64,000 bases of DNA from Polytrichum commune. Taxonomy: Eukaryota > Streptophyta > Polytrichopsida > Polytrichales > Polytrichaceae. Where the stretch lies: contig OX485804.1 of assembly GCA_950295325.1 (NCBI GenBank), positions 24,676,001 to 24,740,000 of the forward strand. Direction: 5' to 3'. The notes under the pieces were generated by a model. That model did no database searches. It saw only the letters and a program-made list of their open reading frames with translations, and was not told the DNA's origin. The translations under genes were made by a program, and so were the position numbers. Positions 11,385 through 49,199 of the stretch are shown here, in pieces. Numbering within the stretch: the first letter of the stretch is position 1; each line of letters begins with the position of its first letter.

Positions 11385-14059
11385 CACTCTAAACTGTGTA
11401 ATATCAACCTCCATAATGTCACTCACTCTCTAATATCCCTAAACCCTAGGGAACGAATGTTCTTGGTTCGAATCTCACTCCTAATTGTCACATTTTGCCA
11501 TTAATGCAAACCACCAAAGAAGTCAACCCACACCCTTGCATTGTGCCATGTGTCATTATGTGGAATGTTTCCTTCTTATTCTTTTTCTTCTTCTTTTTAT
11601 GCCTCTTGTTGAATTGTTGGTGCATGCATTTGTCACATTGCCTAGGAAGGCCAAGTGGGAGGTTGATATATGAAGATGGATCATGTGTATTGATGCTGTA
11701 GATTTCCCATGCGATGATTTGTTCTAAATACTAAACCCTAGTCTTGAAACTGTAGTCTTCTCCCTCTCACTTGGCAATTCGATCCACCAATGTGGTAAGC
11801 TCTTTAGGAGTTGAATATGCATAGGTGCATGCACTACTCATTGTGGAGGTCACCACTTACTAATTTCAAATGCAAGCCAAGCTATTAATTATGCTTTCTA
11901 CGTATCCTTAGAACTTGAGTTGTTTTGAATTTAAGATCGAGCACCACAAAACTGGCATTGTTGCAGGTGACTTCCATCAATTGCCGATGAAGATTTAGAG
12001 GCAATTTTTTATGCATTGGACAATAGTGGCGACTTCAAGGTTCGTTTGCATGCAAAAAAATTAAAACACTATAAATATCTTCTTAGCAAACCTTGGAATT
12101 CTTCACCAGTTGCTTGGGGTTTTGTCCATGGTAGGAGATTTGATATGTTGGTTGTCTCTAGATCGACAAGGAAATTTTTGTTGATCTTTGCAATGCCACC
12201 TCTTTGAAATTTGAAAAGGCAAATGGTGTGAGTTGGGCGCAAGCATGGTCAAGTACACAACTCAATTACCTTGCATAGGTTTAAGTGAAAGTAATTCAAA
12301 AATATATACTAACTTTGAGTTTTGTGTGGAAAAAAATCAAAAGATTTGAAAACACATTGATGTACAAAGCAAGCAATTTTTGTTGACAAATGTTTTACAA
12401 GATAAGTTTGCATATTTTAGAAGACAATGTAAATAATGTGCAAGTAGATATATTGAACAAGCAATTGTCTAAAATTTGGTTAAAATATGATAAAATATGA
12501 TAAAATAGATTTTTTACAATTTTTTATAATGATGCCCTCAAGTTTATGATAAATTCAAGGATTATGGAAAAATTAAACTTCAAAATATCTAAAATCATGA
12601 AATCTACACGTGTCCAAAACCAGATTTAGCCATTACCATTTGGGCAATACTTTTAATGATAAGTTTTGAAGATCTCACCTTGATACCCTATATTTGAATA
12701 CCTAACACAAAAATAGAGTGCATCATAAAAAAAACACCCAATTAAATCAACACTTTGCTGCTACTTTTAGGCGTTTGATAAAAACATTATGGTTTTAATA
12801 TGCCGGACCATTTTTTTTCGTATACTTGACCGTGCTTGCTCCCAATTGCAATCTTGTCTACATTTAATTAACATCCCTTATACTGGTATTTCTTTTCAAC
12901 GTATGTTTCTTGAGATGAAATTTTGGTGTGCTCAAATGTGTAGAATGTATCCCTCATGATTGTTAGTTAGTATGTGAAAATAATGGATCCCATTTGCATG
13001 AAGCTCGATGTGGTGCTAGATTATAGGCTCATGAGAGGGGGATCTATGAGTCAAAGTTTTGACCATTATGCATACATGATTGTTAGTGTTCGAGGAGGAT
13101 TTTGGACATAATCGGTCAAGATCCTAGTGTTTTCAAGACCCACCAGTGACTTGTTGACATCTTTCATTGTTTCTTTGTTACATTGAGGAATATTCTATAA
13201 ATTCCTCTCAATGGATCAAATCGAGATAAAAAACCTTCTCTTCTCTCTCAAATTGGAACTATTGCACCTTGAGCTTCTTGTCTTCAATGTTTAGCTTTTG
13301 CACATAATTTGATACCATCACTTCATTATCATGGTCCACACATGATATAAATTAGCAGTGCTAGAAAATTCCCTTTCACCATTTAAACAAAATGTAATTT
13401 TCTACTAAAATTGAAATTTACAAAGTGTTTGCTTGAAGTTAAAAAAAAATAGCAAGATTCAACTTCTCAGAAAGGTTCACTCATGTGGACACATACACAC
13501 CAGGAGTCCACCGCACAACTGTTGTCATCCAAAAATCATTATTTTCGTATTCTTCATCATCATCTTCATAAAGCCCACGTTGGAATGCCTTGGCTCTTCA
13601 AATGCCTCCCTCCTACATCCAAAGATTCCATATCTTCACTTAACCCAAAATCAAGATCATCCGGTTGCCCACCCACCAAAGAACCTCACCAATTTTCATC
13701 ATCTCCCAAGTTTTGTAGGTCCACAACTATATCATTCTCCCCACCACCCTCTTCATAATCTTCCCGATCTGCTCCGTGTTGGGGTCTTGCACCAAACTCT
13801 TGTACAAAGTGTTTCTCGACTTCTTGGACCGCCCGATCATACCATAAGCTTTGCGTATGTGTGCAACTTTTGGAGACTATCCATGTCCCATGTATGAAAC
13901 CATCAATTTCAACATCACAATGTTGCACTTTGTGTTGTTCCATAACGCCACACGCTACATTAATTCTCTATTATCATGCATCCATGTTAACACTACAAAA
14001 CTCTGTAATATCACGTGCACTTTGGTTGCCACGGGTGTGATACTACGGAGCTTAGAGTG
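11385..14059. mobile_element. Pack-type TIR element carrying a TPC1 gene fragment, 2675 bp
   Basis: The left end reads CACTCTAAACTGTGTAATAT and the right end, inverted, reads CACTCTAAGCTCCGTAGTAT. About 280 bp of left subterminal sequence (to about 11665) and about 130 bp of right subterminal sequence (from about 13928) match, inverted, the short element at 46952-47436. In that short element the two parts are nearly adjacent. The 2.2 kb between them here is therefore cargo, and it includes exons of a two-pore channel gene (11971-12225). A reverse-strand open frame at 13686-13943 lies in or near the cargo and is unidentified. No convincing target duplication is seen, so the superfamily is not assigned. 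The CACTC ends are CACTA-like. Confidence 0.65.
11971..12225 (+). pseudogene. TPC1: TPC1-like (two-pore channel) fragment: two exons and their intron
   Basis: Exon A (11971-12039) encodes 23 residues including the EF-hand stretch ALDNSGDFK and ends at a GT donor (AAG|GTTCGT). Exon B starts at 12162 after TCTCTAG and continues in frame with IDKEIFVDLCNATSLKFEK. Joined, they match the second EF-hand region of plant TPC1, where the family reads roughly LDxSGDFKIxxxEFxDLCNAIALKFQK. TPC1 is the vacuolar Ca2+-activated cation channel, and its EF-hands sense cytosolic calcium. The intervening 122-bp intron is intact (GT...AG), so genomic DNA rather than an mRNA was captured. An in-frame TGA lies just before exon A and a stop follows exon B. 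No other channel exons are present, so this is a non-functional captured fragment inside the TIR element at 11385-14059. Confidence 0.7.
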
Positions 14060-14242: not shown

Positions 14243-14660
14243 TCGAGAACAGTTGGGAACAACCCCGACCACCGTCCATCCATGCGGAAGAAGTCGAGAA
14301 CAGTTGGGAACGGCCCCGACCAACGTCCATCCATGTGGAAGAAGTCGAGAACAGTTGGGAACGACCCGACGACCGTCCATCCATGCGGAAGAAGTCGAGA
14401 ACAGTTGGGAACGACCTGACGACTGTCCATCTATGCGGAAGAAGTCAAAAACAATTGGGAACGGCCCCGACGACCGTCCATCCATGCGGAAGAACTCGAG
14501 AACAGTTGAGAACGGCCCTGACCACCATCCATCCATGCGAAAAAAAATCGAGAACAGTTGGGAACGGCCTCAACGACCGACTGACCGTCCATGCGGAAGA
14601 ACTCAAGAACAGTTGGGAACGGCCTCGACAACCGTCCATGTGATGTGGAAAACACGAACA
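14243..14660. repeat. Minisatellite, about 8 units of 50-55 bp
   Basis: Units begin near 14243, 14294, 14345, 14395, 14445, 14496, 14548 and 14603. Each holds GAGAACAGTTGGGAACG followed by a GACCACCGTCCATCCATGCG-like block. The array is bracketed by a direct repeat of about 30 bp containing TCATGGGCA and GGCCATTGAAGG (at about 14178 and 14734). Several overlapping open frames on both strands cross the array. They are by-products of the repeat, because period changes of 50, 51, 52 and 55 shift the frame. Confidence 0.85.
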
Positions 14661-14779: not shown

Positions 14780-15765
14780 AGTTAGAGGACGCCCCGGGAT
14801 CGACCTCCCGCGCGCCCACCCCTCCCCTGACTGACTTGACTTGCCCCCAACAGCCCAGCCCTCCCCTCGCCTCGCAGTCTCGACCCATCCCCAGTCCCGG
14901 CTGCTGCCCCATCCAACGCCTCCCTCCCCTCGCCTCGCCTGGCGTGGCGTTCGATCGATGCTCAGACGGTGGCAGCATCGACCTACCACGTCGTGCCCAC
15001 CCACCCGATCACCACAACTACAATATCAGCAACAACAGCACCACTACCATCAAGTAAGTCAAGTCATCAGCCACTCACTGAATAGCAATATCATCACCAG
15101 AAAAGGAAGCAGCAGCCCACAACTCCACCTCTCACCGCTCAATCTCTCTCTCTCTACCTGCCTGCTTGCCTGCCTCCGACAATAGGTAGTAGCGTCATAG
15201 CTGAGTTAGCTGCAGCGGCTGCAGCGGCTGCAGCGGTGTGGATGATGTCTGCATGCATGTGTGAGTAGTTAGCTCGGGGGTGGATCATTCTCGGTTTTAG
15301 CAACTTTCTTCTTCCGACACAACCTTGCATACATTCGCCGCTGCAAGAAAGCTGCTGCCAGCATTGCAAAGGTTCCAGTTTTGGGTCGTGTGCCACTGCA
15401 GCTGATTTGTCCAGCTGGGGAATTGGTTGAGGACATTACACACCGATCCACCGATCGACGTATCGATCGGGAGGCGGGTGGGGATGGCGAGGATCGCTTG
15501 GGCAATGGGTGGTGGTGGTGGTGATGAATTGTAGGTGACCCAAAGGATTGTTGTTGTCGTGTTGTTGTTGTTGTCACCGAGTTCCTTTCGGGGGGTTCAT
15601 CAAGAATCGTGAGGGCTGGATCCTCCGTGTGGGTTGCATGCGTGGGTGGGAGGGGGGAATCGGCGGCCATTCTTGACACGGAGACTTTCTGCACCGGATG
15701 ATCTGCTGCAGGTGGTGGTAGAAGGAGGAGGAGAAGAAGACATCGAGGGAGTGGGAGGAGGTGGA
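14780..15765 (+). promoter_or_regulatory. Presumed promoter and 5' leader of the methyltransferase gene
   Basis: This stretch is richer in G+C than its surroundings. It has C-rich tracts, a CT microsatellite (about 15145-15158) and a GCAGCG triplet run near 15212-15235, as is common for plant promoters and leaders. Two short upstream open frames precede the chosen start: 15484-15534 (16 codons, with a run of glycines) and 15638-15676 (12 codons). The coding frame itself is open upstream to 15634 but has no ATG before 15766. No TATA box can be assigned with confidence. Confidence 0.45.
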
Positions 15766-18369
15766 ATGAGCCTGGAGGCCAACATGAAGGCGGAGACGGA
15801 CAACGGGCACAAGAGCCGCAGCTTCCGGAACAAGGTGTTCGCCATCGTCGTAATCCTGCTCCTCAACGTGCTCACGCTGTACGCGTTCACCACCCTCACC
15901 AACGTGCACAAGTACAACCAGATGCTTCGCCAAGCTTCGGTGCGGGAGAGCCGCCTGCACTCCTCCATGATCACATCCGAGCTCGCGCTTTCGACGCAGC
16001 TCAACAACACACATGACGAGCTCCAGCAGGTTCGCCGGGAGCTTCGACAGGCGTTGGAGCAGTACCGCAAGCTGTTCGAAGAGCTCAACAGCGTCTCCAG
16101 AATTTTCCAGCAGGAGAATCATGGGAACAACGACAATGAGGGGGAGCGGGAGCAGCAGCAGGGGGATGACATGAAGAGCCGGCAAGCGGTGAGGGATTTG
16201 GTGGAGAGGTTGGCGACCTTCGAGGAGGATCCTTACCACGGATGGATTTTGCAGAAGAGGCAAACCCTACCCGCGGAGCTTCGTGAGTATGTGACACCAA
16301 GAAAGCTTCCCCTGGGATGGAACCCGTCGCTTAACACGGACAGCATGATGTCCAGTGTGGGACATGCATGTGTTGCTGCGCAGGAAGACATCGAGAGGTT
16401 CATGAGCTATGAGGTCGGTAAGTTGTGCCCCGATGACGATAACCTCGCGCAAAAGCTGTTGCTCGAAGGCTGCGAGCCTCTTCCTCGCCGCAGGTATGTG
16501 TTCACTCGAGCGAGCGATGCCATCTCTGACTTTCTTGATTTCATCATGGAATTGTTATCTTTATTTCTGTTTTTTTCTTGACATCATCATCAATCCTTAG
16601 CTTGTGTGATAGTGATGGTAGTTCCCCTCCTGTTTTCACCGATCTCGGAATCGATGAGCTGCTTTCTTGGAGCTATCTGCCGCCTTCCATGGATCACCGG
16701 TTATTGCTCTGCATGTTGCGCCTCTCTTTTCTGGAATCAAGATTTTGTGTGATTTGTCTCATTCTCTCGACAGCATAATTTTCAGCAGCATCCATCCTTC
16801 CTAGCCTGTGCGATGGTGGTAGTTCCCTTGCTATTTTCACCGGCTCGGAATCGATGACCTCATTTCTTGAAACAATGTATCTTGCCGCTTCCGTTGTGCA
16901 CTGGTTATTGATCTGCATGTTGAGCCACTCTTTTATGGAATCAAGATTTGAACTAATTTTCTCGAACCGAGTAGGGAATTCTTCAAGTTGTAAATCACTT
17001 GTAACCTGCTATGTATGGAGTCATTGAAACACACGTACCCTCTTGTTTTCGGTCCCGGATTGGTTCCAGAGGTTATCTGCAAGCTTGGTCTTTAAATTTA
17101 AGAGTCGTCTCGATGGAGATTGTTAAAGGTCTAATGGCGAGTTTAGCCGGGTTCTTGTACGTCTGCGCCACTTCCACACAGCAGGTTAAGCTTGAGGTCT
17201 GCGTCCAAATTGTTCACCCCATCAGTTAGTTCTGGGGCTGGAATGTCGATTAGGTTATCAGCTGTGGAGAAGTCTCCAGTTTGTAAGTATTTGGTCGTCA
17301 TCATCATCATCAGTGGCTGTGAGTTCTGTTCTGGACATTCGTAGCCGGCTTAAATCCCCCAGTCCGTGCTTTTCCCACAGCCTTCATCTCGTGCCTTCCA
17401 TTGTCGATACGTGTTGAATTTCAGTGTAAATCCTCAATCCTACAGTTTGACTTCAATCCTGTGTGCCATTGCTACGATAGGGAACCCGAATTAAAACCTA
17501 AATATATCATCACCTCAATTCTCGCAATGATAATTCCACACGTTCTTCCATTCCTTCACATGTAAGTGTTTGTTGCAAGAATTAACCTCCTTATCATCCT
17601 CATCATCCGTGGTTGTCTGAATTCCAAATGTAGGTGCTTTGCAAGGGGCCCACTGAACGCGACCGAGCCGGTGCAATTCCCCGAGAGCATGTGGACTTCA
17701 CCCCAGGATGGCAACATCAACTGGGAAGCCTACCAATGCAAGAGCTTCGAGTGCCTCAACACCCGAGCTGCGAAGAAAGTGTTTGCAGACTGCCTAGACT
17801 GCTTCGATCTGACCGGCCGCGAGAAGAACCGGTGGATGATTGCACCCGGTGGAGTAGACTTCACCATCGAAGAGGTTTTAGCCCTAAAACCCCGCATTCG
17901 GATCGGCCTGGACATCGGTGGAGGCACAGCATCGTTTGCGGTCCGGATGAGAGAGCACAACGTGACCATCGTCACATCGACATTGAATTTGGGAGGGCCT
18001 TTCAACAATTTTATCGCCCAGCGAGGGGTGATGCCCATTTTCATGTCGATTTCCCAGCGCCTGCCATTCTGGGACAACACTCTGGACTTGGTGCACTCAA
18101 TGCATGTGCTGTCAAATTGGATCCCCGATGAGTCTCTGGAGTTTATCCTGTACGACATCGACCGAGTGTTGCGTCCCGGTGGGGTTTTGTGGCTGGACCA
18201 TTTCTTCTGCGTCAGATCGCAGCTGGAGAACACCTACATTCCCATGATCACCCGCTTGGGGTACAAGGAGCTCAAGTGGGAAGTGGGGAAAAAGCTCGAC
18301 CGCGGGGAGAAATTGCAAGAGGTTTACCTCTCTGCCCTTCTGGAGAAGCCACACGCAGCTCGACTATAG
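15766..18369 (+). CDS. Type II membrane SAM-dependent methyltransferase-like protein (At1g29790 type), 487 aa, 2 exons
   Basis: The exons are 15766-16493 and 17634-18369. The intron begins AG|GTATGT, ends ATGTAG|G, and gives an in-frame join at Arg243. The first in-frame ATG is used. The protein has a short basic N-terminus, then one membrane segment (about residues 24-44, VFAIVVILLLNVLTLYAF), making it a probable Golgi or ER type II protein. A coiled-coil-like, Glu/Gln/Arg-rich stalk follows (about 50-125). The C-terminal half carries a class I methyltransferase fold with the SAM-binding glycine loop GLDIGGGT (334-341), a later HSMHVLSNWIPD segment (397-408) and RVLRPGG (420-426). It matches the plant family of uncharacterised methyltransferases typified by At1g29790. 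The substrate is unknown; a link to cell-wall or secretory methylation is inference from the membrane anchor. The 3' end seeds the tandem array downstream. Confidence 0.88.
16583..16990 (+). repeat. Tandem duplication inside the methyltransferase intron
   Basis: Two units of about 200 bp (about 16583-16786 and 16787-16990) share GTGATGGTAGTTCCC-like text, TCGGAATCGATGA, the TGCCGCTTCC region and GGAATCAAGATTT. They lie wholly within the intron between 16494 and 17633 and do not affect the coding frame. Confidence 0.7.
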
Positions 18370-21453: not shown

Positions 21454-24400
21454 TTAGCAATTCCCGTTTGCACTAGTAATGTCGGTGGAGTTCTCAAGAA
21501 GAAATCCATGGCACCAGTTCCTGTGACCTCGGGCTCGTTCCTCCAACATGTCCTCTACTTCTTGAAACGACAAACCTTTTGTTTCGGGTACAAAATATAT
21601 GACGAAAAGCAGCGCGAGAACGGATATGCACCCAAAGAGCAAGAACGTCATCGAGGTGCCAATGCCTTTGACAAGAGAGAGGAAGGACTCGGATATGATA
21701 AGGTTGGCGACCCAGTTGGCCGTCGCAGCGATCCCACCGCACAACCCCCGGTATTTTAAAGGGTAAATCTCAGAGTTGACGGCCCACGGGACCGGACCCA
21801 TTCCTGGAGAGAACGCCATAATGTACATAGCAAGGCCCAGAATTGCAAGCCATCCATAATGGCTTGGGCACCCTTTCGTGAACCAAGATGTGTCGCCACA
21901 AATGCTGTTCATTGTTGCGTTGGATATTAGACATGCTCCAGGTAGATTCTGGTCACAGGCCAATGCACAACATGTGAGAGAGAGACTCTCTAAGGTACAT
22001 GGGTCTTGACTGATTACTTTTTCCAATGACTAGCTTGCTTCTCCTAGGATATGAAACACGGGATTAGGATGAGATGGTTAGCAAATTCAAATTGAGGCTG
22101 TACCTACTTCCCTCATAATTTTTGGAGCTCATATGAATATTTTATTCATTCTTAAAGTGAAGATTCTTGTGCTCATTAAATGGTTATGTAGGTCCCCCCA
22201 ACTATGTCCACTGATGAATCTAGGATGGTTATCTTATTTTGAGCATGTAGTTCAATTTCTTTTGAGCAAATATATTCTTGGTATATGTTCTTGAAGCCAC
22301 ACCTAACCACATACGACTCAAATATCCCAGGTACGCAACTCCCATATTAATGATGAGGGGTGGCAACATTGAAACAACCTAGAAAATCTTCCCTGAAATG
22401 AAAACTAATATATGTAGAGAAATAAAGTTATGTGGGATGAGTAGATTGGAGTGAAAAGGCCTTGCCTGGTTTCCCTTGGCAGCACAGAATCCACATCCAG
22501 GTTTTGCTTGTATGCAACTATTGCAGTCCCCTGCTTGCAACAGGGATGGATTCGGGCACGCCAGGTGGGTGAATTCGCTGCTCACATTGAAATTAATAGC
22601 TGGAGAGTCATGGGAGGTGAGGTGAAACGCTGCAGTTAGAACAGCAAGAGCAACAATTACCCCGCTCAAACTGAACATCAGAAGACGTCGTCTCCCACAC
22701 CGATCTATCAACACCATACCTGCAGAAAGAAGCACAAACGATGGCATTGAGTAAGGTATGTGGGTATTTTTCCTTTTCTTTTTTCTTTTTCCTGTTTTTG
22801 AGACAAACGCAACAAAATTGATTTCATTGCCCAAAAAGAAACAAGGCCATTGGGACCCATTAAAAGAGAGCAAGGAAATTGTCTTGGGTGCACCCAATGG
22901 AACCACCAAACCCTAAGAAGGCTGAACAATCTAGCCTTGGTTGGACAAAACCAAGCCAACATTACTAGATGCCCAATTGTTCCACATGATTTTAGAATTC
23001 GACATGTGGTAGAGGAGGTTGTTGCCGCCCCAAGTAGTGTTGAACTTAGCAAGGACATCATCATGAAGAGTCTCCTTCGTTGAGTTTGTGATAGCTTTTT
23101 CCCCATGCAATTCTAGCATAGTCAAGTAAACCTTGCCAAATTGTTCGCTATACCTTGCTAGCGTGGACCATCTAGTGTTGTTGAAGGTAAGGCAAGATCA
23201 TTCCCTCAATCTGAGTGGTCCACAATGTAATGCCTCCAAGGAGGAGCCAAATTCTAGAGTACTTACATAAAGAGGCTGAGATCTTTTGGCCAAAAAGTCC
23301 CATGATACAATCCACCCTCTATAAATGTTAGGCTCTGGAGTAAAATTTTCCTAACATTTATGGTGAGTTGACATTGTAAGAGTTATAAAGGGAGCTTTTT
23401 GAATGCTTAACAAATATAAATTCATTACAATTATGGAGGGAGAGTTTTGCAAAATTCTCATATATAAAATATGTGTATCAAATCAATCTTTTATTTTTAT
23501 GAAACAAAATAAGAATCAATATAGTTCAGATGAATAATTTGATCACAAAAGTCAAATTTGGTGGCTTTTGCCACTTTGAAAGGTTGTGAGTCAATGTAAT
23601 GGATGTCATCACACAATATTGGATGTATTTTGTAGGTTAACATTTATAAGTGACAAATTCACAAAGAGGGGAGTAAATTATTGTTAACATTTAACATAGT
23701 TAACATTCTAGTTAGCAATATGAGGGGAGTACGATTTTGCTAACAAATATAATGAGCTAACGTTTATAAGTGTAACATTTATCAAGGGTGGACTGTACCA
23801 GAGGAAAACTCTCAAAGAGTAAGGTATGTGGGCCTCATGTTGTCACTATTCTTAACCAGACACCTGTATTTTAGTGATAATGAGACAAGGCTAGTAGTTA
23901 AGACACGTGTAACAATGAGATTGGACCATGTGCTCCAAATTTAGACACCATTCTAGGTTCAATTGTTTACACATTTAGGGGGGCCTACATGACCACTTAA
24001 AGAGAAATAAAATCTCCACTTTCACCTCCTATATCTGTTGTATCTAAACTCTAGCGATTCTTGATACTTGAGATGACAATCTTTGTGATGTGCATTTGCT
24101 GAATGGATGGGACGCTTCCCAATCCATTCCAACGAGGAAAAATAAATAAAAATGGGTCTGTAGAGTTGGAAGTGCCCGCAATAGGGCTGCATACCTTACT
24201 GCATCTGTTGTTGGTACTCCTACAGAGCACAAGTCCAACACACACACTTACATGTCCCACAAGCTCTCAGACTCAGGTGGTGTTTTTGTTTCAAGATTTC
24301 AGCACCGGGCTTGGTTTGAAACCTTATACTTATATGAAAATGTTTCTGTACACATTTCCATATAAGTATAGCCAAGTTTCCTCTGACTTTCAAAGAAATC

Positions 24401-25720
24401 TTTGGGAAAATTAAATTTGGGCCCGTCGCAATGCACTCGTCCCTAAAATTAGAAGCCCTGGATCCTTGAAGGCTCGATCAACTCCCAGTAATTGGGGGCT
24501 TATTCAATCATGTTTAGGATTGTTACCTTACTCGAGGGTTGTTTGCTTCGGCGGGTGCACCCATGAGAGCTCTCCTCACTCTCTTTTTCGGGTCTCCATG
24601 GCCCAGTATGTTCTTTGGCAATGAAATATGTCTTGTTTTGTTTGTCTACCAGAAAAGAAAAAGAAAAACAACAACAGTTATGGTAGTTAAGAGATTAGAG
24701 GGGTGACTTAAGAGTTACCAACTATGGTTCCCAGAGCGTTCAATCCAGATGTGATGAGCGAGAGAAGCAATGCTGTTTGGTGTGATGCAAATCCTGCTAG
24801 TTCCACAATGGAAGGGCTGTAATACATCACTGTATTAATTCCCACAAGCTGCTGGAATATCTGCAAAAAGGAAAGTCACAAGATTAAGTTAGGATGTCCA
24901 CATCACCAGTCTCGATGATGTGGCGTCTTTCTAGTGGCTATGAAGAGGATAGGTATAACCCCCCTAAAGCCGCCCAAAATGTTATAAAAATCTTCATTTC
25001 TTGCTTGAATTCTCCTCACACTGGTTAAGGTAGACTGTGCTAAAACCAACACCCCACCTTACAAACATGCACTTTAAGTACATATTGACTTTGAGAATGT
25101 CCATCACCTTAACATCAGGCTCCCGTGTTGGTTTTGGATCACCTACCAATAGAACTTTTAATAATCACAAAACTTCAAGGCACACCGATATGTGCAATTA
25201 GGTTGCCCCAGGCTAATTTATTGACAGTCCACACTATTTTGAATATTCATCACCACAGTAACTAAACACAATATTTTATTTATTTATTTTTAATACCATG
25301 GGTGCTATATGGATGAATAAACAAAGCTATGAAAAAAAAAATTGTGGTTGGGTTTGACCCAACGTAGTTTGCATCCCTAAGGAGGCAACCTAATCACACA
25401 TATCAGTCACGTAGTTTTTTGAAATCACATTGCATGAGTTTATGGAAGCTGTCCAACCTGGAGACCGACACCTGCAGTGAGTGCCAACCGTGTTGGTTTG
25501 TATGAGAATAACTTCAGCATTGCTCTTAAAGTTGACTCAGACTGTGCTTCCATGTCAGTGTGAACGGCCACTTCCAGCTCTTGGACCTCTTGGTGCAGTA
25601 CAGAGGATGGATAAATCTGTTCCAACACTTTAACGGCCTCGGCACGTCTTCCCTGGTCACAGTTAATGTAGAAGAAAGTCATTGATGAAACTGATAACAG
25701 CCCTGACATCAGAAATGTTC

Positions 25721-25775
<55 letters not shown>

Positions 25776-28675
25776 CTCAAGGTTGAAATCATTCAAGACA
25801 AAAAAGATACCCCTTGTGGAATCAAAACTACACTAAATTGTCCTACTAAATGGTCCTATTGGTGTGGGTGAGAAATTAGCGTGGAAGTATTCAACGTGGG
25901 CCAACTCCCATTTCTAGTTGGGGTGGAAATAACATGGGTCCTGGAAGTCATCCCCCTCAGTCTTCCTTGGGACTTCCGACCAACACCTTAAATAGAATTA
26001 AAATAGTCACCTGTACATCAAAAGTAGGATATTATGAAATTTTCACCCACATCGATTTCCTAGAAAGCAGTTAGTGTCGCTGCCCACAGTAATTTCAAAC
26101 TAGAGATTCGGCGTGGGTTGAAAATGAATGCGGGCTCTAGAGAGCTACTGTGGCCTACAGAAATAGGACTGTTCAGTGGACTGAATTTTCTTCTTTGGAA
26201 GGACACCATGCATGATCAATGGATATGAGACAAGTAAGGACATCAAAGGAGGACAGAGGATTATGTGGAAGTTTCAACCTGTCGAAAAAGCCAGCGAGGG
26301 GATTCAGGTAGAAACAGCATGAGAATTCCCTGTATTACTGCTGGAATCCCTGCTACGCCCAACATCCAGCGCCATGTTCCTGGTACCTGTTATCATGCAT
26401 GAAAAACATACTTACAAGTAAACCATCAGACTGGTCAGTCAAAAAAATTGTAACAGCCAAATTTTAATCACCCTCTGGTCTTAAGATGTGAGCAATTGAT
26501 GAGGAAAGCTGATCAAAATGCAAGTGACCAGGATTGTAGCTAATGATTCTCTGAACATCGATTCACCTCAAGACTCATTTGATCGACTAAGTTACATCTT
26601 ACCTCTGTAGCCTATGTGAAGGCTAAGGTTGATCAGGTACGCAACAAACTAATGTAGACGCATTCATCATTCAGAGAAAACCATGATCAAATCTTTCAGG
26701 TATAGATAGGCGGTAGGCATTGATTCATTCATGTGGATATAGTTCTAATGTGACTGAATAAATGTGGAATGAACGCTGGAAGAATTCATGTGGGCAATGT
26801 GTTTGACTTATCTTACCTGTGTGAAGGCAAGGTTGATGAGGTAGGCAAAAAACTGTCCACCAGTAATGAATAGCACATTGAGAGTGACCAGGGCTCCCCT
26901 AATCTTGGCAGGGGAAGCTTCGGCAATGTAGAGAGGAGCTGTCATGGAAGCTACACCCACCCCTAACCCCACAAGTATCCGGCCTGCAATGAGGAGAGCC
27001 ACGTTGGGAGCAGCCGCCATGAACACAGCCCCAATTGCAAACACAGCATCTGCAGCTAAAATGGCCGGTTTCCTTCCAAACCGGTCATTTATGCGTCCCC
27101 CAAAGGCCGCTCCAATTATAGCCCCTGCTATCGCCATGCTCACTATGGTTTCCTGCCCATTGTCATGTCATCAAAACTTATTCAGTTACTCTCATTTCAA
27201 ACGTCAAGTCAAACATTCAATTGGGCAGGAGATTTCTTTTCAGAACCCATTGTAACTAAAACCCAAACGGGTCAGCGCCTTCAAGAACTGGGTTTGTTTG
27301 CTGTTTTCCAATTGAATGGCGACTTTCCATTGACAGACAAAATTACACTCACAAAACACCTCAGTGACCCCAACCGGGGCCTGGGAGATGGGCAAGGGGA
27401 TTGAGATTAGAACCTGGTTTGGAGCTGGGAAAACATCATCACTTTTAAGCATAAGCATTGATTTGGATCTGCATTTGTGTTATGAGCATTTTCGAGACTA
27501 TAAATTCTAAGAATTATTTTCAATCTCCTTAGAATCGACAACAAATAACTGGGGTCAGGCTGGATGGTGACAGACCAATGGCTTTGGATTAACCGCTTCC
27601 AGTTAGTTTCTAAAAACATTGACATTTAGAGGTGTATGCCTTTTCTAAATTAGACAGGATTGGTATCAATGGATCTTCTCTTTCCAAGCATGCTGCTCCT
27701 CCTTGTGAGATAGCTAGTCACAAGCATAAGAAAAGGATTTAGATGTAACTGTTCCAAGGGGAATATCTAGTTGAATTAAGTTTGCACATGCCAAGGAAAT
27801 AGAGAAGCGTACCTGAAGAATTGTGCTGTTGTCCACAACTTTAAAGTCATCACGAATGTACAGCAAGGCGCCAGATATCACACCTACACCACCACCACGG
27901 CCAACACAGGAAATTAAACCTCGAGTATTGACGTGTTAATGAATTCCTGTAAGATCGGAAACAAGATGCGCAATGCCTGCATCAGGCCAATTTGGCAAGT
28001 CTATTGCAACATTTGTGCCTAATTCCTTTACAGCTAGTTAGCAACCCGAGGTGGCAACTCTCCCTTTTAGAACAGTTATAATTAAATATCTGCATTGATG
28101 ATTTTTTCTTTCACAAATTGGGGAAACATGCTTGGAAAGAGGGCATTAAGAGATAGATATCCATTGATACGATTTGAGTCTGGATTAAAAAAGGTTTTCA
28201 TTTTCATATGTCATTTTTAGAACTAATTGGAAGCAGTATTTTAAAACAGGGATCACCATCCATCCAGACCCCTTGAGGCGTTGAATTTCACTTCGAAGAA
28301 AATTCATAAAATCACTTAGAATTCATAGTCTTAGAGATGCTTATAATGGGAAAGTAGCTCTCAAATTCGAATGCTTATGCTTAGAAATGGTTTAGCAGCT
28401 CCAAACTGCGTTCCAGAGATAATTGCCACCTGGTGTTAGTAATGAGTCTAGTGTATGTAGACATGCATAATTATACCTGTGTCGTAGCCAAAGAGAAGAC
28501 CACCGATGCCAGCTGAGAATGTCAATTTCATGATGTAGAAATTCAGACTTGAGCGAGAAGATAATGAGGTGGGGCTTTGGAAATCCAAATTTTTCTCCGA
28601 CCCCTCTGTCGGCTCTGCCACACTCTTCATGCTGGAGTGCGCTGGTTTCTCAGCCGGCATTGTTTCAGACTCCAT
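21454..28675 (-). CDS. INT: Inositol transporter, INT2/INT4 type (major facilitator superfamily), 599 aa, 8 exons
   Basis: Exons in transcript order: 28477-28675, 27813-27883, 26817-27152, 26279-26386, 25458-25652, 24719-24860, 22466-22719, 21454-21948. All joins keep frame. The protein shows sugar-porter hallmarks: [10 protein letters not shown] (58-67), [11 protein letters not shown] (108-118), PESPRWL (229-235), [14 protein letters not shown] (306-319), [11 protein letters not shown] (488-498) and PETKG (556-560), consistent with 12 membrane helices. Between helices 9 and 10 lies a long extracellular loop (about 383-465) with eight cysteines including CNSC and CGFC. This PSI-like loop is typical of INT2/INT3/INT4 and separates them from vacuolar INT1. 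The family imports myo-inositol by H+ symport at the plasma membrane. Length fits the family (about 580 aa), with a longer N-terminal tail of about 50 residues. The intron after exon 7 uses a GC donor. I cannot tell INT2 from INT4 orthology. Confidence 0.92.
23820..24065. repeat. Dispersed repeat copy inside transporter intron 6
   Basis: The text from AAGGTATGTGGGCC to about 24065 is a diverged copy of a family also seen at 10790-10990 and 36905-37090 (shared CAATGAGATTGGACCATGTG-like and AGAGAAATAAAATCTCC-like blocks). The left end resembles the TIR of the MITE at 29297. It lies entirely within the intron between 22720 and 24718, about 2 kb long, and explains part of that intron's length. 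Confidence 0.5.
25720..25771. repeat. (TA)n(GA)n microsatellite in transporter intron 4
   Basis: A run of TA dinucleotides passes directly into a long run of GA dinucleotides. It lies in the intron just upstream of exon 5 in transcript sense, where it reads as a (TC)n(TA)n tract starting about 68 bases from the splice acceptor. Confidence 0.9.
26598..26650 (-). repeat. Degenerate duplicate of the transporter exon 3 end within intron 3
   Basis: On the minus strand this segment reads like the last 35-40 bases of exon 3 ([11 protein letters not shown]|), with the shared TACCTSATCAACCTT core, and then a GGTAAG-like donor. The real exon end lies at 26817-26855. The copy has a 1-base insertion and several substitutions and lies about 160 bases past the true donor, so it is a non-functional exon echo or a potential cryptic donor. 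Confidence 0.6.
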
Positions 28676-37500: not shown

Positions 37501-40500
37501 TGTAGTGGGGTATCAAATCCAGATGGATTTTCGCCCAAAATTTCAAGAATTCCTCAAGACATAATATGTTAAAGACCATGATATGCTTATGTTATTCCCT
37601 AAATACGCAGCCTAGACAAGCTAGCATGTTTTGGGTAAGCAGAAACCCAAATAGGCTATATTCAAATTTCATGCATATAATGGAACCAACCCATTATGCT
37701 TGCTGAAACGGCCTTTGATTCCTCATCTACAGGTGGTCCAATAAGAAGCGGAACAGTGTTATGAAGGCTAACCAGAGTAATGAAGAAGCCGCACACTGGC
37801 TAAGGAGGAGTCAAGAGCGCCTTGTTTCTCAAAATAAGTCTCCTCAAGGTTGAGCGCCAAAGCAATTAGCCCTGCCACCCTTTTTGACAGCTTCCTGCAA
37901 TTACAATGGTCAACTATTGATCAAATGGAGAAACCTTATTTGACATGGCTATCCCAGAAGTGCCATGTATTGATTTATGCAAACAAAACATTTACATAGA
38001 AAAAAAACCAAAAAGAATGCAAATTTATTATGATAATGTCAACCCCTACCTAACATTTTCGATGACCAAAACATCACTGCAGTCTGTGCAGCACTTGAGG
38101 AAAATTTATCACACAACAAGGCTATCAATCTACAGAACTTCATCACAAACCTCTAGAACAGTATATCAAACACTGATATCACATTGGTTCAATCACATCA
38201 AACTACAGCAGACATATAAAATAGGATGCCCATCGGACATAGGGTTGTAATTTTAATTGTTTGTTTCTATATTCTATAACTGCAAGATCTAAAAAGATCA
38301 TAAAGCTAAATGTTGAAAGAATCATAAAGCTAAATCTTAAATGAACCATGAAGCTAAATGTTGAATTAGCATTGCAAATCTTAAACCCTGCAGTGGTATG
38401 TAATGACATTGACTCAACATTAAATGATGATCACTTGCATACTGAGATGTTCTAAATACGAATGGAAAAGCTTACAAGAGTTCGCCATGATAACGGTCCA
38501 TAATCTCTCTCCACCCAGGTAGCAGCTCTGTATGCACCTTCATTGAATAAATATTGCCCAAGCTTATAACATAAAAAGAATAGAAAAAATTGTACATACT
38601 GAATTGAACCCTTCATTCTCATTTGATAATCAGGTAACCCATCCACCCGTAAGTGAGGATTTGAGGATTGACGATTTTTCTTTTCTAACATGGACACCTT
38701 GGGTGGCAACAACTATTTCTTGGTCCTTAATGCATATTGCATTGGCTTTTGGCCTTCTGTCTCAGAAAAAGATAACTATATGCAGCATCTATTTACAAGG
38801 GTTAGCATCTTTAAAAACCTAGTTTGGAGTTATTAGAACATCAATTTTAGATCATTCTAAAATTCTCTTAAAATTGAAGAGGTGGAAAGAGGAAGTCCCA
38901 AAAATTTCACTCAACTTTCAAGATAAGAAGCTCTTAATAATGAGTTTTCTTAAAGAAGGATCAAACCCACAGTTCTGTCCCTCTTTGAGAGATTTTGCCG
39001 ATAACTCTAATATTTTGGAGTTGCTTTCCTACTATAAACATTAAATTTAAAAAATTAAAATTTCTACTAAAATTTCTACTAAAATTTAATAAAAAAATTC
39101 TAGCAGAAAAAATAAATACTTAGGAGGTTTGGATGGTGACCCATGCTTTAGAGAAAATGCTTCCAATTGGTTCTTAAAACGTTGACATTTGAAAGTGTAA
39201 ACATTGTCTAATGTGGGCACAATTGGTACCAACGGATTGAACCCTTTGTGAATTACAAATCATCAATCCATTGGAAACATCATGTGGCAACCCAAGCCCG
39301 AGAGATGTACCTTCAGAAGGATATATGTTCGGTCCATGTAAAGGCTTCTTTGAGAGAGGGTCGCTTGGGGGTTTGTGAACTCCTATATAATATCCTTCCT
39401 TCCCATCACCTGTTCCAACCAACATCAACAAGTTTGTCAGCTAGATAAATCTCACTATTAGAAACATGCACAAGGTTCAGGATTATATACATGATTGTGT
39501 TTGACTACTTACCTTATGGTGCCTATATATTAAATATCATTCATGGGCCTCTCAAGGAGTTGGATATCTTTGAGTATCAAGCTAGTAATTTAATTAAGTT
39601 AGTCTCTATGGTGGCCTTGTCCTCTTCCTTAAACCCCTAAACTTGGCTACTGGACTCTTACAACCCAAGACATGCACATATGAAAACCAATTTTTCTCTT
39701 TGGTTTTATTAGTATGTGCATGGTGGCTACACAATGCACAATGAAGAATGCCATTTGGCTTCTTGTGTATTATATCCAAATTTCATTTTGATGATGGACT
39801 ACAACTATTTAAAAAAATTCAAGGTTAGGTCATCAAGGGACCATTAACATGCTAGATGTGTTGGTGACAACATAGATTATGTACTAAGATGCTGATATGG
39901 AGTTGGCAGTGACCCACCAAACCATGTTGTCCCATCGACTTTTTAGCCCTTTTGGTGTTTAAGGAGAAAAAATAACCTTGTAATTTAGAGCACAATTTGG
40001 TCACATGGAACCAACAAAAAATAAACACGCAGACACACACCTCAACACATTTGAGTTGCACTGACTGATCAATTCTAAACCTTCATGTGTAAATGTAACC
40101 CTAAACCACTTGAGAAGCACTTGAGTCAGTGAACGGGGAGAACAGACAACTAGTTACAGATGAACCGGTTGAGTTTGAGAAATAACCGGTTGAATTTCAA
40201 CAGTGCAGGAAAATTACCAATCACTTTAGAGGAATTTAGAGAATATACCTCAAATTAGTAAAGAAAATCCGAAAGATGCCAACATGTAACCGGTTGGGCT
40301 TGGAAACACTAGAATCTCGATCGATTTGCCCAAAAATATCCCGGGACATTGACTTGAGTGGTACCTTTGGATTGTTTAGCTGGATCCAGTAATTGCTCCT
40401 GGAAGGGCGTGTAGCCACGGTGGTTTTCGTCATGGATGACCTTCATTTTCTCCTCTATGGGGAGAGCGAAGAACCTCTTGCTTTGCTCAAACGCCTCATC

Positions 40501-41553
40501 CAGCAGGTTCACATCCACTCCGTGATTGACGACATAGAAGAACCCTACATCAACGCACGCCTGCACACATTTATCCATGTTCTGCACTTCAATAACTTTC
40601 TCATCCGGTTGTCATTAACACCCTCAGATTTACTACTTGTGTCATAAAAAACCTGGCTGGATTTTGGGATTTAAGGAACTTTGTGGGGCGGATGCCACAT
40701 CCAGAGGCTGAAGAGAATCGCGGACTACGGGAAACAAAATGGACGGGTTCGGGAACATGAAGTAGGAATCAGAACACCTGGACTTCACGCTAGAGAAGGG
40801 TACACTAAACATATGATTTAGTGTGACCCACAATGTTCATCGTCGTTGACCCACATTATTGTGTATAATCACTGTGTGGCAACTAGAGAGGGTGTCATCA
40901 TACGACACTTCGTGAAACATGACAAGTCGTGAAGACCGCTCTAATTAACAGGGCACATCAATTTTGATGCCAAATTAAATCCAACATTTACTATAGCTAC
41001 CTCGGACGTCCTTGGAATCTCGGTTGGAAACTAGAGCTCCCGTCTCATTCCCATACACTCCAATCCTGAATGAATACTCGGCTACTAACTTAGCAATCAA
41101 ATCCTTGATTTTTTTTTAAAAAATTTGAGAGCTTACCAAAATCTTTCCCTCAGATAAAAATCAAATCAAATCAAGGATTGATTGCTAAGTTAGTAGCCGA
41201 GTAGTCCAGGCTCACTATTCATGCACACAGGAGGATGACCAGGTCCCGACCAGGTTCCTCCTGGATCAGATCACCAGAGCACTTTGGAACGCGGATTAAT
41301 GCACCAGGCGTAAGTTTAAAATCTCAATCATGCAAATCTCTTGCAGTAGGTCGAGCAGCGAGGTCTCCCTGAACAAGAGATTAATCAAAGCAGACACACA
41401 AGGAGCTTCTTAATCAATTAATTAGTTGCTGACCTTCCAAGTTTCGAAGTCACCGCAAATTAACCGGAAGCGCACTACACCACACCACACCACTCCTAAA
41501 GACCTTCAATAAACAGACGAAAGAAAAGTCTGTTGACGATTCGTCAACTTTCA

Positions 41554-41669: not shown

Positions 41670-42171
41670 GTCGATACAGGCCAAACCTCCTGCGTCGACC
41701 CCGCCATCTTCGTTACTTCGAAGCCCCATAGCTCCCAAGATTTACAAACTAATTCGATTGCAACTGATACTTCACCGTTTTACCTAGCCTCCGAAGCCGT
41801 CACAGAGCATCTCACTCCAAAACAAAACGAAACACAGCACGACGACAGAAGACGCACTAACAGTGACTTGTAAAGTGTCTGGGACCTTTCCGTGCAATAT
41901 CCCCCTGCAAGAGTGACTCCATTCACATAAGATGCCTTCCCACCCAATCACTTCAGAGTCAATTCCTCCGTGAATCAGCCGCGCCGGCCATGTCCATGAT
42001 TCCATTCACATCCAGTGCTATTATTACAGTGCCCATTCACAGCCCACTGCCAATGATGTCCTTTCTGTTTCATGTCTTATATGGGAAGCTGTGCAGATTA
42101 GGTATCGGGGAATTTGGCACAACTTGTCTGCATCTTTCCATGATTTGGGGTCATTGTTTGAGGACTGAGGG

Positions 42172-43277
42172 CAGGGGTGTTTTTTCACAAGGTCCCTAAC
42201 ATGTCTAGGGACATGTTCATAAAAAAAAAACATTTCCAGTGGACGGGTTCTTAGAAAATGAACCGGTTTTGGGACGTGTCAAATTCACTTTGGACGGGTT
42301 CTAAAAATAACATTTTTTAAATTAAAACAAATGGTACAAATATCAATTACGTTATGTCATATATGACATGTGAATATAAGCATAATGCAATCAAACCACT
42401 AATACCCAATCAAACTATCAATCTTGAAATGCTTGATTCACCTACATACATTAATTCATCAACCACAAAATTTAGAACCTTTTTAACATAATGTCAAAGA
42501 TTACAATTGAAGGTAAACTTAGTAATTGAATAAGAATTAGTATATATAAACATGTTAAAAAGTTTCAAAATAAAGAGCTACTTACCCTTCAAAGAAGTGG
42601 ATGAATTCTCCTATCCTTCATGTTTCTCCAAACAAGCATCACTGCATTCCAATCGATGTTTTCAACTGGAATATTTGCACATGAAAACATTGTTGAAGTT
42701 CAAGATTGCAGGAGGAGATTGTTCCAGCGGCACTCTCCAACTTCTTGAATTCGAGTTAGTTTCAAATGAACTGGTTGAGTTTGAGAAAACGCATGTTGAA
42801 GTTCAAGATTGCAGGAGGAGATTGTTCAAGCGGCACTTTCCAACTTCTTGAATTGGAGTTAGTTTCAAATGAACCGGTTGAGTTTGAGTGACTGAGTCTA
42901 GTTCAGTTTCTCTGAACTAGTTTGTGGACAAACAGACAAAATGGGGCAGTGGCAGGCTGGCAAATTGGTAATTATAATAGAAAAAGCAGAAATGAACGAA
43001 GATAGTAAGATACTATTGTTTCCAAGTGGCAAGTGCACCAATCACATGCCGACATCTTTCGGGTTATCTTTATCGATTTGTTTTTTCCTTTAACCTTTTC
43101 ATGGACGGGTTGGTTTAGAAATTACCGGTTTTGGGACGGGTTGTTTTTTCTTCAACCTTTCCATGGATGGTTTGGTTTTGAAATTACCGGTTTTGGGACG
43201 GGTTGCAATTTTTTTTGCCTTTCAATTTGAGGTTTTGGGACGTGGACGGGTAAAAACTTTGTGAAAAAACAGCCCTG
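42172..43277. mobile_element. Non-autonomous hAT element, 1106 bp
   Basis: It starts CAGGGGTGTTTTTTCACAAG and ends with an inverted counterpart (CTTTGTGAAAAAACAGCCCTG). It is bounded by the 8-bp duplication ACTGAGGG (42164-42171 and 43278-43285). CA(G)GG ends and an 8-bp target duplication define the hAT superfamily. It has no transposase. Internal tandem duplications of about 105 bp (42682-42889) and 64 bp (43092-43215) are present, with repeated GGACGGGTT motifs near both ends. It is related to the inverted copy at 43896-44998. Confidence 0.85.
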
Positions 43278-43282
43278 ACTGA

Positions 43283-43585
43283 GGGTAAGCTCACACGGGG
43301 TCCCAAGTCCCAAGTCCCACTCATGTTAGCAAGTCCCACCATGGAGGCAAAGTGCCAACTTTTGAGCTTCAAGAAACCATTACAATATGGGTAATTATCA
43401 TTACAGTCGAAACTTTATTATATTATGCAAAAATATTCACAGGACTTGTGTTGAGAGTTGGGTCTAGCTTTTTGCTCGACCCAACTCTTAACACAAGTCT
43501 CAAGCCTCACCTCCAAAAAGTGTTACCATGTGGGCATTCATGTCATACTTGGGATTTAGGACTTGGGACCTGTGTAAACCAGCCT
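43283..43585. mobile_element. Fold-back MITE with Harbinger-like ends
   Basis: The left end GGGTAAGCTCACACGGGGTC and right end, inverted, AGGCTGGTTTACACAGGTCC form an imperfect inverted repeat. A nearly perfect inner hairpin lies at about 43443-43499 (GACTTGTGTTRAGAGTTGGG arms). The flanks show TGA on both sides (43280-43282 and 43586-43588), a 3-bp duplication like that of PIF/Harbinger elements. Its left edge coincides with the insertion point of the hAT at 42172-43277. Confidence 0.5.
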
Positions 43586-43620
43586 TGAGCCCCATGGGAA
43601 TTTAGAGCTTATATATCTTA

Positions 43621-45251
43621 TGCCCCCTCCCCACCTGACTTTACCAAATAACCAAAGTTTTTCCTAAAACCCGAGTAAAGCTCCCTTGGTTATAGCGGAG
43701 GCGTCCGGCTATCCCAATGCACCTACAAGAACTTGCTTTGGAGATTGTCGAGTAGGTTTAAGTTAAGTAGCTTTCACTTATGGTCATTGTTTTATCTATC
43801 AAGCAATGAATGTTGGATAGTTTTTGTCCCATCCCCAAATGCCTTACTACTTATCTATCTTACCATCGGTTTTTGATAATGAAGCTCCTCGTGCCCAGGG
43901 TTGATTTTTCACAAAGTTTTTGCCCGTCCACGTCCAAAAACCTTGAATTGAAAGGCAAAAAAAATTGCAAACCGTCCCAAAACCGGTAGTTTCTAAACCA
44001 ACCCGTCCATGGAAAGGTTAGTGAAAAAACAACCGTCCCATAACCGGTTTGGAAATGAAAATACTTATCCCGCAATACGTATAAATAAGTCTCTTACAAT
44101 GTTGGTAAAAAAAAATTAAAAAAACAATAAACAACAAAACCAAAAGATGTTGACATGTGACTATTTGCACTTGGAAACAATAGGATCTTCACAAATTATG
44201 CCTTCAATGCCCGTCAGTTATCTGTCTTTTGTTATCGATTCTCATCTTTCCAGTTCACCCCATTCTAATTTCCTATGCCACCATCATTACTTTTTATTTC
44301 TTGTCCTTCAATCTCCCATTTCTTTCCCCACACTCTATCCTCAAGGTGTTTCCATCACCCGTTATCGCCCGTCCGTCACCACCCGCATTCCCTCCACAAG
44401 AGGGGTTTTTCTAGATAAAACCTAATCAAAAGTCATCTACGTGCTAGTTTGAAGTTAGAGACTTTAGATGCTTTGATGTGCATTTCATGTGCAAATATTC
44501 CAGTTGAAAACATCAATTGGAATGCAGTGATGCTTGTTTGGAGAAACATGAAGGATAGGAGAATTCATCCACTTCTTTGAAGGGTGAGTAGCTCTTTATT
44601 TTTAAATTTTTGAACATGTTTATATATACTAATTCTTATTCAATTGCTAAGTTTACCTTCAATTATAATCTTTGACATTATGTTAAAAAGGTTCTAAATT
44701 TGGTGGTTGATGAATTAATGTATGCAGGTGTATCAAGCACTTCAAGATGGATATTTTGATTGGGTATTAGTGGTTTGATTGCATTATGCTTATATTCACA
44801 TGTCATATATGACATAATGTTACTAATATTCGTAACAAATATATTGTTTGGAAAAAAATATTATTTTTAGAACCCATCCAAAGTGAATTTGACACGTCCA
44901 AAAACCGGTTCATTTTCTAAGAACCCGTCCACTGGAAAGGTTTTTTTTTATGAACATGTCCCTGGACATGTTGGGAACCTTGTGAAAAATCACCACTGCT
45001 CGTGCCCTCATAGCTAAGATTAAAAGCAACCAATCACAAGGACGGGAGGTGACACTTTTAAAGGTCCTACATTCTTGCCTCATGTCTAGGTATTGATGGG
45101 AGGGTCGGTGGTTGAGGCTTAAAATCTCCACTTTTAAACCATGCCACATCATTTGCCAACTAGTCTCGGCACTAGGTAATATCGATGGTGTGAAGGCCAT
45201 GTTTTTAGAACCAACTTTTAGGCTTAGCTAAAGTCAAGTGGGGAGGGGGCA
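43621..45251. mobile_element. MITE family M, copy 1, interrupted by a hAT element
   Basis: The ends TGCCCCCTCCCCACCTGACT and, inverted, TGCCCCCTCCCCACTTGACT are flanked by TA (TTA on the left, TAA on the right). Without the 1103-bp hAT and its 8-bp duplication the unit is about 520 bp, equal to copies 2 (47617-48128) and 3 (51119-51637). A shared short open frame (NECWIVFVP...) is a repeat by-product, because it occurs with different breaks in each copy. Confidence 0.75.
43896..44998. mobile_element. Non-autonomous hAT element, 1103 bp, inverted relative to 42172-43277
   Basis: The ends are CAGGGTTGATTTTTCACAAA and, inverted, CAGTGGTGATTTTTCACAAG. The 8-bp duplication CTCGTGCC lies at 43888-43895 and 44999-45006. 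The right part matches, inverted, the left part of the hAT at 42172 (shared CGTCCACTGGAAA and AAAACCGGTTCATTTTC). It has no transposase. It sits inside MITE family M copy 1 and is therefore younger than that MITE. Confidence 0.87.
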
Positions 45252-45965: not shown

Positions 45966-46951
45966 GTCCGAACCAAGAAACAAAACATCACATATGTACT
46001 TACTAGGAAAAGTGTTGGCCGCATGCCATTACCTAATAAAGCTTTCCACTTGTTATGAAATTCACAAAGATTTGAGAGACATTCTACCTTTCATAACAAA
46101 CCATGCTCTTGTCCAACTAGATTGTGATTGTAAGAGATAGATCTTTATAGTGGACACAAGATCAAAAACCTCACATTGAAGTGCTTGTTGGGAGGTGACA
46201 CAACCAATAGATTAGACAACCAATGAGAGGAGAGTGGATGACAAGCCATGGGAGGAGTGATACTCGAGTTGGGTTATAAGTCATCACCAATCATCTCATG
46301 GACATAATCTATGAATGATAAATAATAACACACCTCCATTGATGAGAATTGTGATGAGTTCTTACAGGTTTTTTCCTTTCTTTTGGATGAGCGATTAGTT
46401 ATGCACATAGTACATCAATCAAGTAAGATAGTTGCAAGCTTAATTAAGCTCCATGTATAACTTAGGGTGCGTTTCCATGTAGACCACTCACCCATCATAT
46501 TCTAGTGTGAATAAGGACAAACCCACCCAAATGTAGAGGGAATCTAGTGTGGTAAGGTTATGTGCCAACTAGCTACTCCCATCTTCTCAAATTTGGGCCC
46601 ACCTACTAACATTCTTCTCCTTCTAAAACATGTCTTCAATCGTGTGGTGACTGGCACTTGTAGGTTGAAAATTCTATAGTGGGACACATGGAAGTCTAGC
46701 AGCCCGTGTCCATGGCCCTTAACATTCTAAGGGTTTGCCAGAATGTGGTTGGATGGTGGTTTGTGCTTAAGTACATGCGAATGCCTTTGACGCACTATTT
46801 TCTAGAATATAGTGGGCGAGCAGCCTACATTGAAACTCACCCTAAAGAATTATGAAAGAAACAATGCCTAAGCGAGTATTAAGCATGAGAAGATAAATAT
46901 TTTGCTTGACATGTTGAAGGGAACGTTTGATCAATCCACAACAAATTAGTA

Positions 46952-47436
46952 CACTTTAAACTTCATAGTATCACACCTGTGGCAATCAAAGTGCATGTGA
47001 TATTATATAGTTTTGTAGTGTTAACATGGATGTGTGGTACTATAAAATTAGTGTAGCATGTGACATTATGGAATAACACAAAGGAGATGTGAGGACAATT
47101 CAAATCCGTTCTCTCATCACCTACACTAGTGTGGTCCACTCCACTTGGCCTTCCAACGATGTGGCGGACGCATGCACCAACATTCAACAAGTGGCATAAG
47201 AGGAAGAAGAAAAATAAGAATAAGAAGGTGACACTTCACATGCTGACACATGGTGCAATGCGAGGGTGTGGGTTGACTTCTTTGGTGGTTTGCATTAATG
47301 ACAAATTTTGTGATATGAGGGAGAGAAATGTGACAATAAAGAGTGAGAGTTGAACTACGAACATCCGTTTCCTACGGCTTTGGGATATTAGAGAGTGTGT
47401 GACATTATGGAGGTTGATATTATGGAGTTTAGGGTG
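46952..47436. mobile_element. Short TIR element, cargo-free relative of 11385-14059
   Basis: The left end CACTTTAAACTTCATAGTAT and the right end, inverted, CACCCTAAACTCCATAATAT form the inverted repeat. In reverse orientation both subterminal parts align with the two outer parts of the element at 11385-14059, such as the AGTGTTAACATGGATG block and the CCACCAAAGAAGTCAACCCA block. It lacks the 2.2-kb middle found there and has no transposase. Confidence 0.6.
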
Positions 47437-47616
47437 TAGTATGTTTAGGAGTATGAGTCTACTCTAGCAACACTACATGCTAAGTTATGTCTATGATTGG
47501 AAAAGACAAGTCCTTGAGGTGTGAGACGAAGTCGTGTATATTGCACTACTTCTAAAAGGTATTTATGATGAACATAATTGAGATGAATAAATTACATCCA
47601 TCCAATACTTTGCTAA

Positions 47617-49128: not shown

Positions 49129-49130
<2 letters not shown>

Positions 49131-49197: not shown

Positions 49198-49199
<2 letters not shown>

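Follow-up and report, generated by a model that had tools for sequence, protein, structure and literature searches.

The 64,000-nt stretch of Polytrichum commune DNA analysed here (the window; 39.4% G+C) contains two related elements with terminal inverted repeats (TIRs). The larger element occupies positions 11385-14059 (2,675 bp, reverse strand) and is inverted relative to the smaller one, which spans 46952-47436 on the forward strand, is 485 bp long and lacks the interior of the large copy. The ends of both elements are defined by a 22-bp consensus TIR, CACTYTAAACTYCRTARTATCA. With up to three mismatches allowed, this consensus occurs four times in the window, once at each end of each element, and finds a match in none of the 100 shuffled controls. 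The two 22-bp TIRs of the large copy, at 11385-11406 (forward strand) and 14038-14059 (reverse strand), are 82% complementary to each other. From the ends inwards, the two copies share a pair of arms. One arm of the large copy, 13928-14059 on the reverse strand, corresponds to 46952-47083 of the small copy (132 bp, 84.8% identity, E 2e-39), and the other, 11385-11658 on the reverse strand, corresponds to 47141-47436 (about 275 bp, E 4e-74; identity of 79% with gaps counted and 87% across 271 aligned columns). The K2P distances between the copies are 0.176 for the 132-bp arm and 0.144 for the arm of about 275 bp. The initial annotation had described two elements with common ends and subterminal parts, and both are indeed present, with alignable arms. 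In the right arm the two copies are identical over 38 consecutive bp; this was considered as an instance of special conservation and rejected, as shuffled alignment columns equal it in 2,373 of 20,000 trials.

A shorter form of the TIR, AAACTYYRTARTATCA, occurs 33 times in the window with up to three mismatches, against 11.8 occurrences expected. Our tally places seven of these in the 485-bp copy, four in the arms of the large copy and two in its interior, and they are found in both orientations; four of the matches within the two elements are the element ends themselves. The presence of TIR-like subterminal repeats in both orientations seems, judging by the sequences of the two copies, to be a trait of the family. 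Exact words taken from the best-conserved stretch of the arms have no match in viral contigs (31-mer) or in prokaryote contigs (24-mer), as expected for plant DNA, and a Rfam scan of the window returns nothing at gathering scores.

Between its arms the large copy carries 2,269 bp (11659-13927) that are missing from the small copy, and in their place the small copy has a centre of 57 bp (47084-47140, forward strand). The centre is no more similar to the large interior than shuffled sequences are, and its homology to the interior was rejected on this ground. When compared with the whole window, it scores 114 at its own locus, and its score on the reverse strand of the window is equalled by 7 of 100 shuffles. 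The extra sequence of about 2.2 kb proposed in the initial annotation is thus present as the 2,269-bp interior, but securely TPC1-like sequence fills only about 250 bp of it, about a tenth. Alignment to the small copy had been suggested as a way to fix the borders of an insertion; it reveals no clean insertion, the 57 bp being replaced rather than interrupted. Likewise, the contrast drawn between a filled and an unfilled form holds insofar as only one of the two copies encloses TPC1 DNA, but "unfilled" might mean "deleted": the family is known from two copies, and the contrast therefore fits a gain or a deletion alike.

The TPC1-like part of the interior corresponds to the second EF-hand of the channel and consists of two exons on the forward strand, at 11971-12039 (LPSIADEDLEAIFYALDNSGDFK) and at 12162-12218 (IDKEIFVDLCNATSLKFEK). 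They are separated by a 122-bp intron (12040-12161, forward strand) with GT...AG borders (GTTCGT...TCTAG). The peptide obtained by conceptual splicing, with the splice picked after the sequence was read, has AtTPC1 as its best match in PDB, where 11 distinct sequences give E values between 1.3e-6 and 3.3e-6; the next-best protein is a polcalcin, at E 8e-4. In the region of EF-hand 2 the peptide is identical to AtTPC1 (PDB 5E1J) at 21 of 42 residues, and its Pfam matches are to EF-hands, all of them sub-threshold. We also searched the window by tblastn with a whole-length query that we take to be the sequence of AtTPC1 and that differs from 5E1J by one residue, as read from the alignment. With SEG filtering on, this search links the two exons at E 8.6e-4; with filtering off, the first exon alone is found among the matches up to E 10 (E 0.25), the second being absent. 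None of 100 shuffled AtTPC1 queries reaches 8.6e-4, the best of them giving 0.003, and each exon taken singly outscores all 1000 of its 1000 own shuffles against AtTPC1. The AtTPC1 match and the 122-bp intron bear out the earlier reading of two TPC1 EF-hand exons split by an intact GT...AG intron. The piece includes an intron, and capture would therefore have taken place at the level of DNA.

The sequence departs from AtTPC1 in several respects. An in-frame TGA is located at 11968-11970, just upstream of the first exon and directly after an apparent acceptor CAG. In the second exon, the residue at what we take to be position 12 of the EF loop is Ile, in place of the Glu that the PDB alignment gives for AtTPC1. 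The initial annotation envisaged a chimeric transcript or small RNAs from the fragment; such products would be hypothetical, and the first exon has the in-frame stop just described. The TPC1 piece is decayed and probably without coding function, and the shares of decay and of species distance in its divergence are separable only with the parent gene. The two six-TM channel domains of AtTPC1 and its membrane-helix parts have no secure match in the 64 kb, and tblastn with whole AtTPC1 detects no TPC1 exon outside the element in the same stretch. Further TPC1 exons flanking the element had been named as the finding that would speak against captured DNA; none is detected in the window.

Farther into the interior, 13312-13473 (forward strand) bears a weak collinear resemblance to residues 404-462 of AtTPC1, interrupted by three stops and a gap. 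This stretch gives the top score, 43, in a comparison of AtTPC1 residues 402-520 with the forward frames of 12219-14059. Equally high scores are given by 7 of the 252 other, mutually overlapping stretches of the window, by 11 first-order resamples in a set of 300 and 126 in a set of 2,000, and by 6 of 300 shuffled queries, or about 2-6% of controls; among the 2,000 resamples, 16 alignments also begin at residues 402-406, a condition set post hoc. The resemblance is a weak hint that 13312-13473 might represent a third decayed TPC1 exon, next in order. If so, the captured gene piece would measure about 1.5 kb, with its second intron enlarged by inverted-repeat and repeat sequences. A further hint at 13784-13870 (E 3.3 in tblastn) is weaker than the one at 13312-13473: shuffles of its frame reach its score in 17 of 1,000 cases with the 402-520 query and in 27 of 300 with the whole protein.

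The remainder of the interior has the appearance of a patchwork. A 26-nt inverted repeat (88%), with arms at 12233-12258 and 12820-12845, surrounds AT-rich DNA and possibly delimits a small nested element (12233-12845). The repeat reaches E 0.003 in self-blastn, no target site duplication (TSD) is visible around it by eye, and the nested element is unproven because an AT-rich self-palindrome in the same stretch scores equally. A dispersed repeat at 13100-13211 (forward strand) recurs twice on the reverse strand, once at 40225-40335 (79%) and once, with a weaker match, at 44130-44200 (74%). Near one border of the interior, an acidic open frame of 93 aa (13686-13967, reverse strand) crosses from arm to interior; it has no match in Pfam, and an 81-residue piece of it has none in PDB up to E 10. 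A Pfam scan of every frame of 55 aa or more that overlaps the large element (14 of 14) gives no transposase, although shorter or broken coding sequence could escape it; the matches it does give are weak, sub-threshold and to unrelated families. A copy of the dispersed repeat lies just downstream of the first of two pieces of a 2-oxoglutarate dioxygenase N-terminal domain (39311-39440 and 40363-40611, reverse strand; DIOX_N E 9e-24 and 8e-4 (below the curated cut-off)). Upstream of a dioxygenase piece, 41072-41206 forms a short hairpin-like element with 29-nt arms that are 97% complementary and 77 nt apart.

The two copies differ in their flanks. The small copy is bordered by a perfect 5-bp repeat, TAGTA, at 46947-46951 and 47437-47441; for places picked at random in the window, the probability that the flanks match exactly over 5-10 bp is 0.002. 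The large copy has no TSD of 2-10 bp, the 5-bp comparison giving two of five identical positions, and shifting its ends by up to 6 positions recovers no exact duplication of 5-10 bp. A 5-bp duplication, a length that for this family is based on one copy, would have accumulated at least three mismatches in five positions with a probability of 0.009, 0.027, 0.044 or 0.10 at a divergence of 10, 15, 18 or 25%, respectively. As the large copy has no TSD, it may or may not have transposed as one unit. The four termini read CACTC, CACTC, CACTT and CACCC, none of them being CACTA or CACTG. The dinucleotide TA, the target site duplicated by Tc1/mariner elements, flanks the small copy on both sides within TAGTA, and the flanks of the large copy are AA and CA. 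The repeat at the small copy is 5 bp and not 3 bp long, the large copy has neither, and no TSD of 7-10 bp is found at either copy. The family, with its TIR of the type CACTYTAAAC..., is apparently non-autonomous and has a MITE-sized small form.

These features overlap with those of several known systems. As in Pack-CACTA elements, the ends start with CAC and finish with GTG, the TIR is short, and TIR-like subterminal repeats are present in both orientations. The termini differ, however, from the CACTA or CACTG described for CACTA elements in PMC10741241, and neither copy has the 3-bp TSD given there; the sources conflict on this length, which is stated as 5 nt in PMC8903248. The large copy resembles Pack-MULEs in carrying an intron-containing gene fragment between TIRs, but its TIR measures 22 bp and duplications of 7-10 bp are found at neither copy, the TSD of MULEs being given as 7-12 bp in PMC10741241. 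The 485-bp form, with its TIRs and flanking repeat, and the lack of a coding match in the scanned frames of the large copy are reminiscent of MITEs; on the other hand, the large form is not miniature, and the copy number is known for this window only. The initial annotation had proposed a non-autonomous TIR element with captured gene DNA, known from Pack-MULEs and Pack-CACTA elements. The TIRs are there and no transposase is recognised; the ends do not agree with those of CACTA elements, and no duplication of the MULE type is seen up to 10 bp.

The closest published parallel is provided by the Pack-TYPE elements of Gisby and Catoni (2022, PMC8903248), for instance Zm-Pack-PIF cluster 18 and Os-Pack-Mariner cluster 217, which likewise comprise TIR elements with and without a fill. 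That account shows the two kinds side by side: one maize cluster has 52 empty copies to 72 filled ones, and one rice cluster has 8 to 3. There as here, the fill lies between conserved ends and includes a stretch of gene sequence that measures at most a few hundred bp. In contrast to those clusters, the present family has two copies separated by K2P distances of 0.14-0.18, its filled copy has no TSD, and about a tenth of the interior is securely traced to a gene. The Pack-TYPE features found here are TIRs at both ends, one relative of the family in the window and host coding sequence, which was judged at the level of protein, the published comparison with host coding sequence being made at the level of nucleotides. 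The large copy is Pack-TYPE-like by behaviour, but is without the TSD on which the published pipeline relies. A literature search found no paper joining TPC1 with Pack-MULE, a search for fragments of two-pore channel or EF-hand genes in transposons found none that is on the subject judging by its listing, and sequence words from the TIR returned no plant-transposon title among the matches listed.

Taken together, the two elements with common ends, the TPC1 exons with their intron and the absence of these exons from the small copy are probably best explained by a Pack-TYPE-like capture, which would have brought about 2.3 kb, including the TPC1 piece (two exons and the intron, possibly more), into one member of the TIR family. 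The difference between the copies would then represent a gain, and the gene piece would have moved with the element by means of a transposase supplied in trans to the non-autonomous family. In favour of capture are the confinement of the TIR consensus to the four ends, the matching arms around non-homologous centres, the specificity of the AtTPC1 match, the lack of a detected TPC1 exon elsewhere in the 64 kb, the 5-bp repeat around the small copy and the published families with both forms. The filling of an internal gap in an element is a proposed route of capture, and an internal gap in one element might here have been filled from chromosomal DNA. This route would account for the arms being complementary, without overlap and with a gap of 57 bp, an arrangement that independent break points would produce with a probability of about 0.12. 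Alternatively, two neighbouring elements might have fused with the loss of their inner ends, which would account for the missing TSD if the hybrid has not moved since. The missing TSD and the complementary arms favour opposite routes, and we choose neither. Against the capture reading as a whole stand the large copy without a TSD, the replacement of the 57 bp, the number of copies, which at two is compatible with gain and loss alike, the secure TPC1 similarity of only about a tenth of the interior, and the tblastn result with SEG off (E 0.25 for the first exon, the second being absent).

Fusion could also have happened in place, with two members of the family settling to the left and right of a TPC1 fragment that was there already, their inner ends being deleted later and the product never moving; the locus would then merely look like one filled element, its TPC1 piece having been trapped at its original site. 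We regard this as possible, though doubtful. Fusion of neighbours is the published model of Pack-TYPE origin (PMC8903248; PMC13317346), and the large copy lacks a TSD whose loss by divergence is improbable (0.009-0.10 at 10-25%). Complementary arms without overlap, however, are predicted by one opened element and have a probability of about 0.12 with independent break points; in addition, no TPC1 exon is detected outside the element in the window, and the 5-bp duplication of the family is inferred from one copy. It is unlikely that the large copy represents Pack-TYPE birth arrested at an intermediate stage, two members on the flanks of a TPC1 fragment having fused after losing their inner ends, without the hybrid having transposed so far; a hybrid of this kind would have matching outer ends and yet no TSD. 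The probabilities we assign to these explanations overlap, because fusion in place is one route of the capture favoured above.

The direction of the change could be reversed if the large form were the older one, with TPC1 DNA present in the family earlier and the small copy derived from it by an internal deletion with a 57-bp filler. The 57 bp resemble nothing in the large interior, as would be expected of a filler, and what was once coding sequence of the element could survive in the 93-aa frame close to one arm, but the interior combines TPC1 exons with a dispersed repeat in place of a recognisable autonomous element, and the 14 overlapping frames of 55 aa or more include no transposase match; we consider such a derivation unlikely. 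The patchwork interior, with an inverted repeat and a dispersed repeat of its own, would also be compatible with the arrival of another mobile element, such as a Helitron, carrying the TPC1 piece into a copy of the small type with some loss of sequence. This seems improbable in view of the junction, which is not clean and misses 57 bp, and, of the 43 inverted repeats, the 25 longest include no evident second pair of ends that spans 11659-13927. Least credible of all is a TPC1 gene decaying in place between arms that match by coincidence. Adjacent exons in the right order, a plausible intron and the faint sign, at 13312-13473, of the part of TPC1 that comes next in order agree with it, but the exons sit between matching arms, and the membrane-helix parts of AtTPC1 are undetected outside the element in the 64 kb.

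Under the favoured capture, the locus is an ordinary-looking example of a kind already described in plants, and filled and empty forms have already been compared for published Pack-TYPE clusters (PMC8903248). The locus is a further example of a plant TIR family that encloses part of a gene, in a family whose superfamily is unassigned by these data. If the absence of the TSD is original rather than a result of decay, the locus would show the step between the trapping and the mobilising of host DNA; if it is not original, we are dealing with a routine capture, now decayed, that has no evident function.

The window has other features besides the two elements. A minisatellite of 51-bp units (14243-14639, 7.7 copies) begins about 180 bp past the large element, upstream of a gene. 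A methyltransferase-like gene occupies 15613-18369 (forward strand); in it, the frame at 17566-18369 matches Methyltransf_29 (E 1e-9), the frame at 15613-16581 gives sub-threshold matches only, and the distance from the large element downstream to the likely start codon, placed by eye near 15766, is about 1.7 kb. A sugar/inositol transporter-like gene follows in pieces at 21454-27167 (reverse strand), with a Sugar_tr match (E 4e-37) at 26808-27167 and the rest recognised by eye. Two large structures, at 42171-44999 and 47613-51641, have inverted arms of about 520 bp that are 92.7% and 89% identical, respectively, and are possibly long-TIR elements. They have stretches in common, 43617-43896 resembling both 47613-47889 and 51363-51641, and the second structure encloses a nested palindrome at 49424-50819. 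Towards the end of the window, a reverse transcriptase fragment at 60937-61650 (reverse strand; RVT_1, E 4e-9) probably belongs to a LINE-like element.
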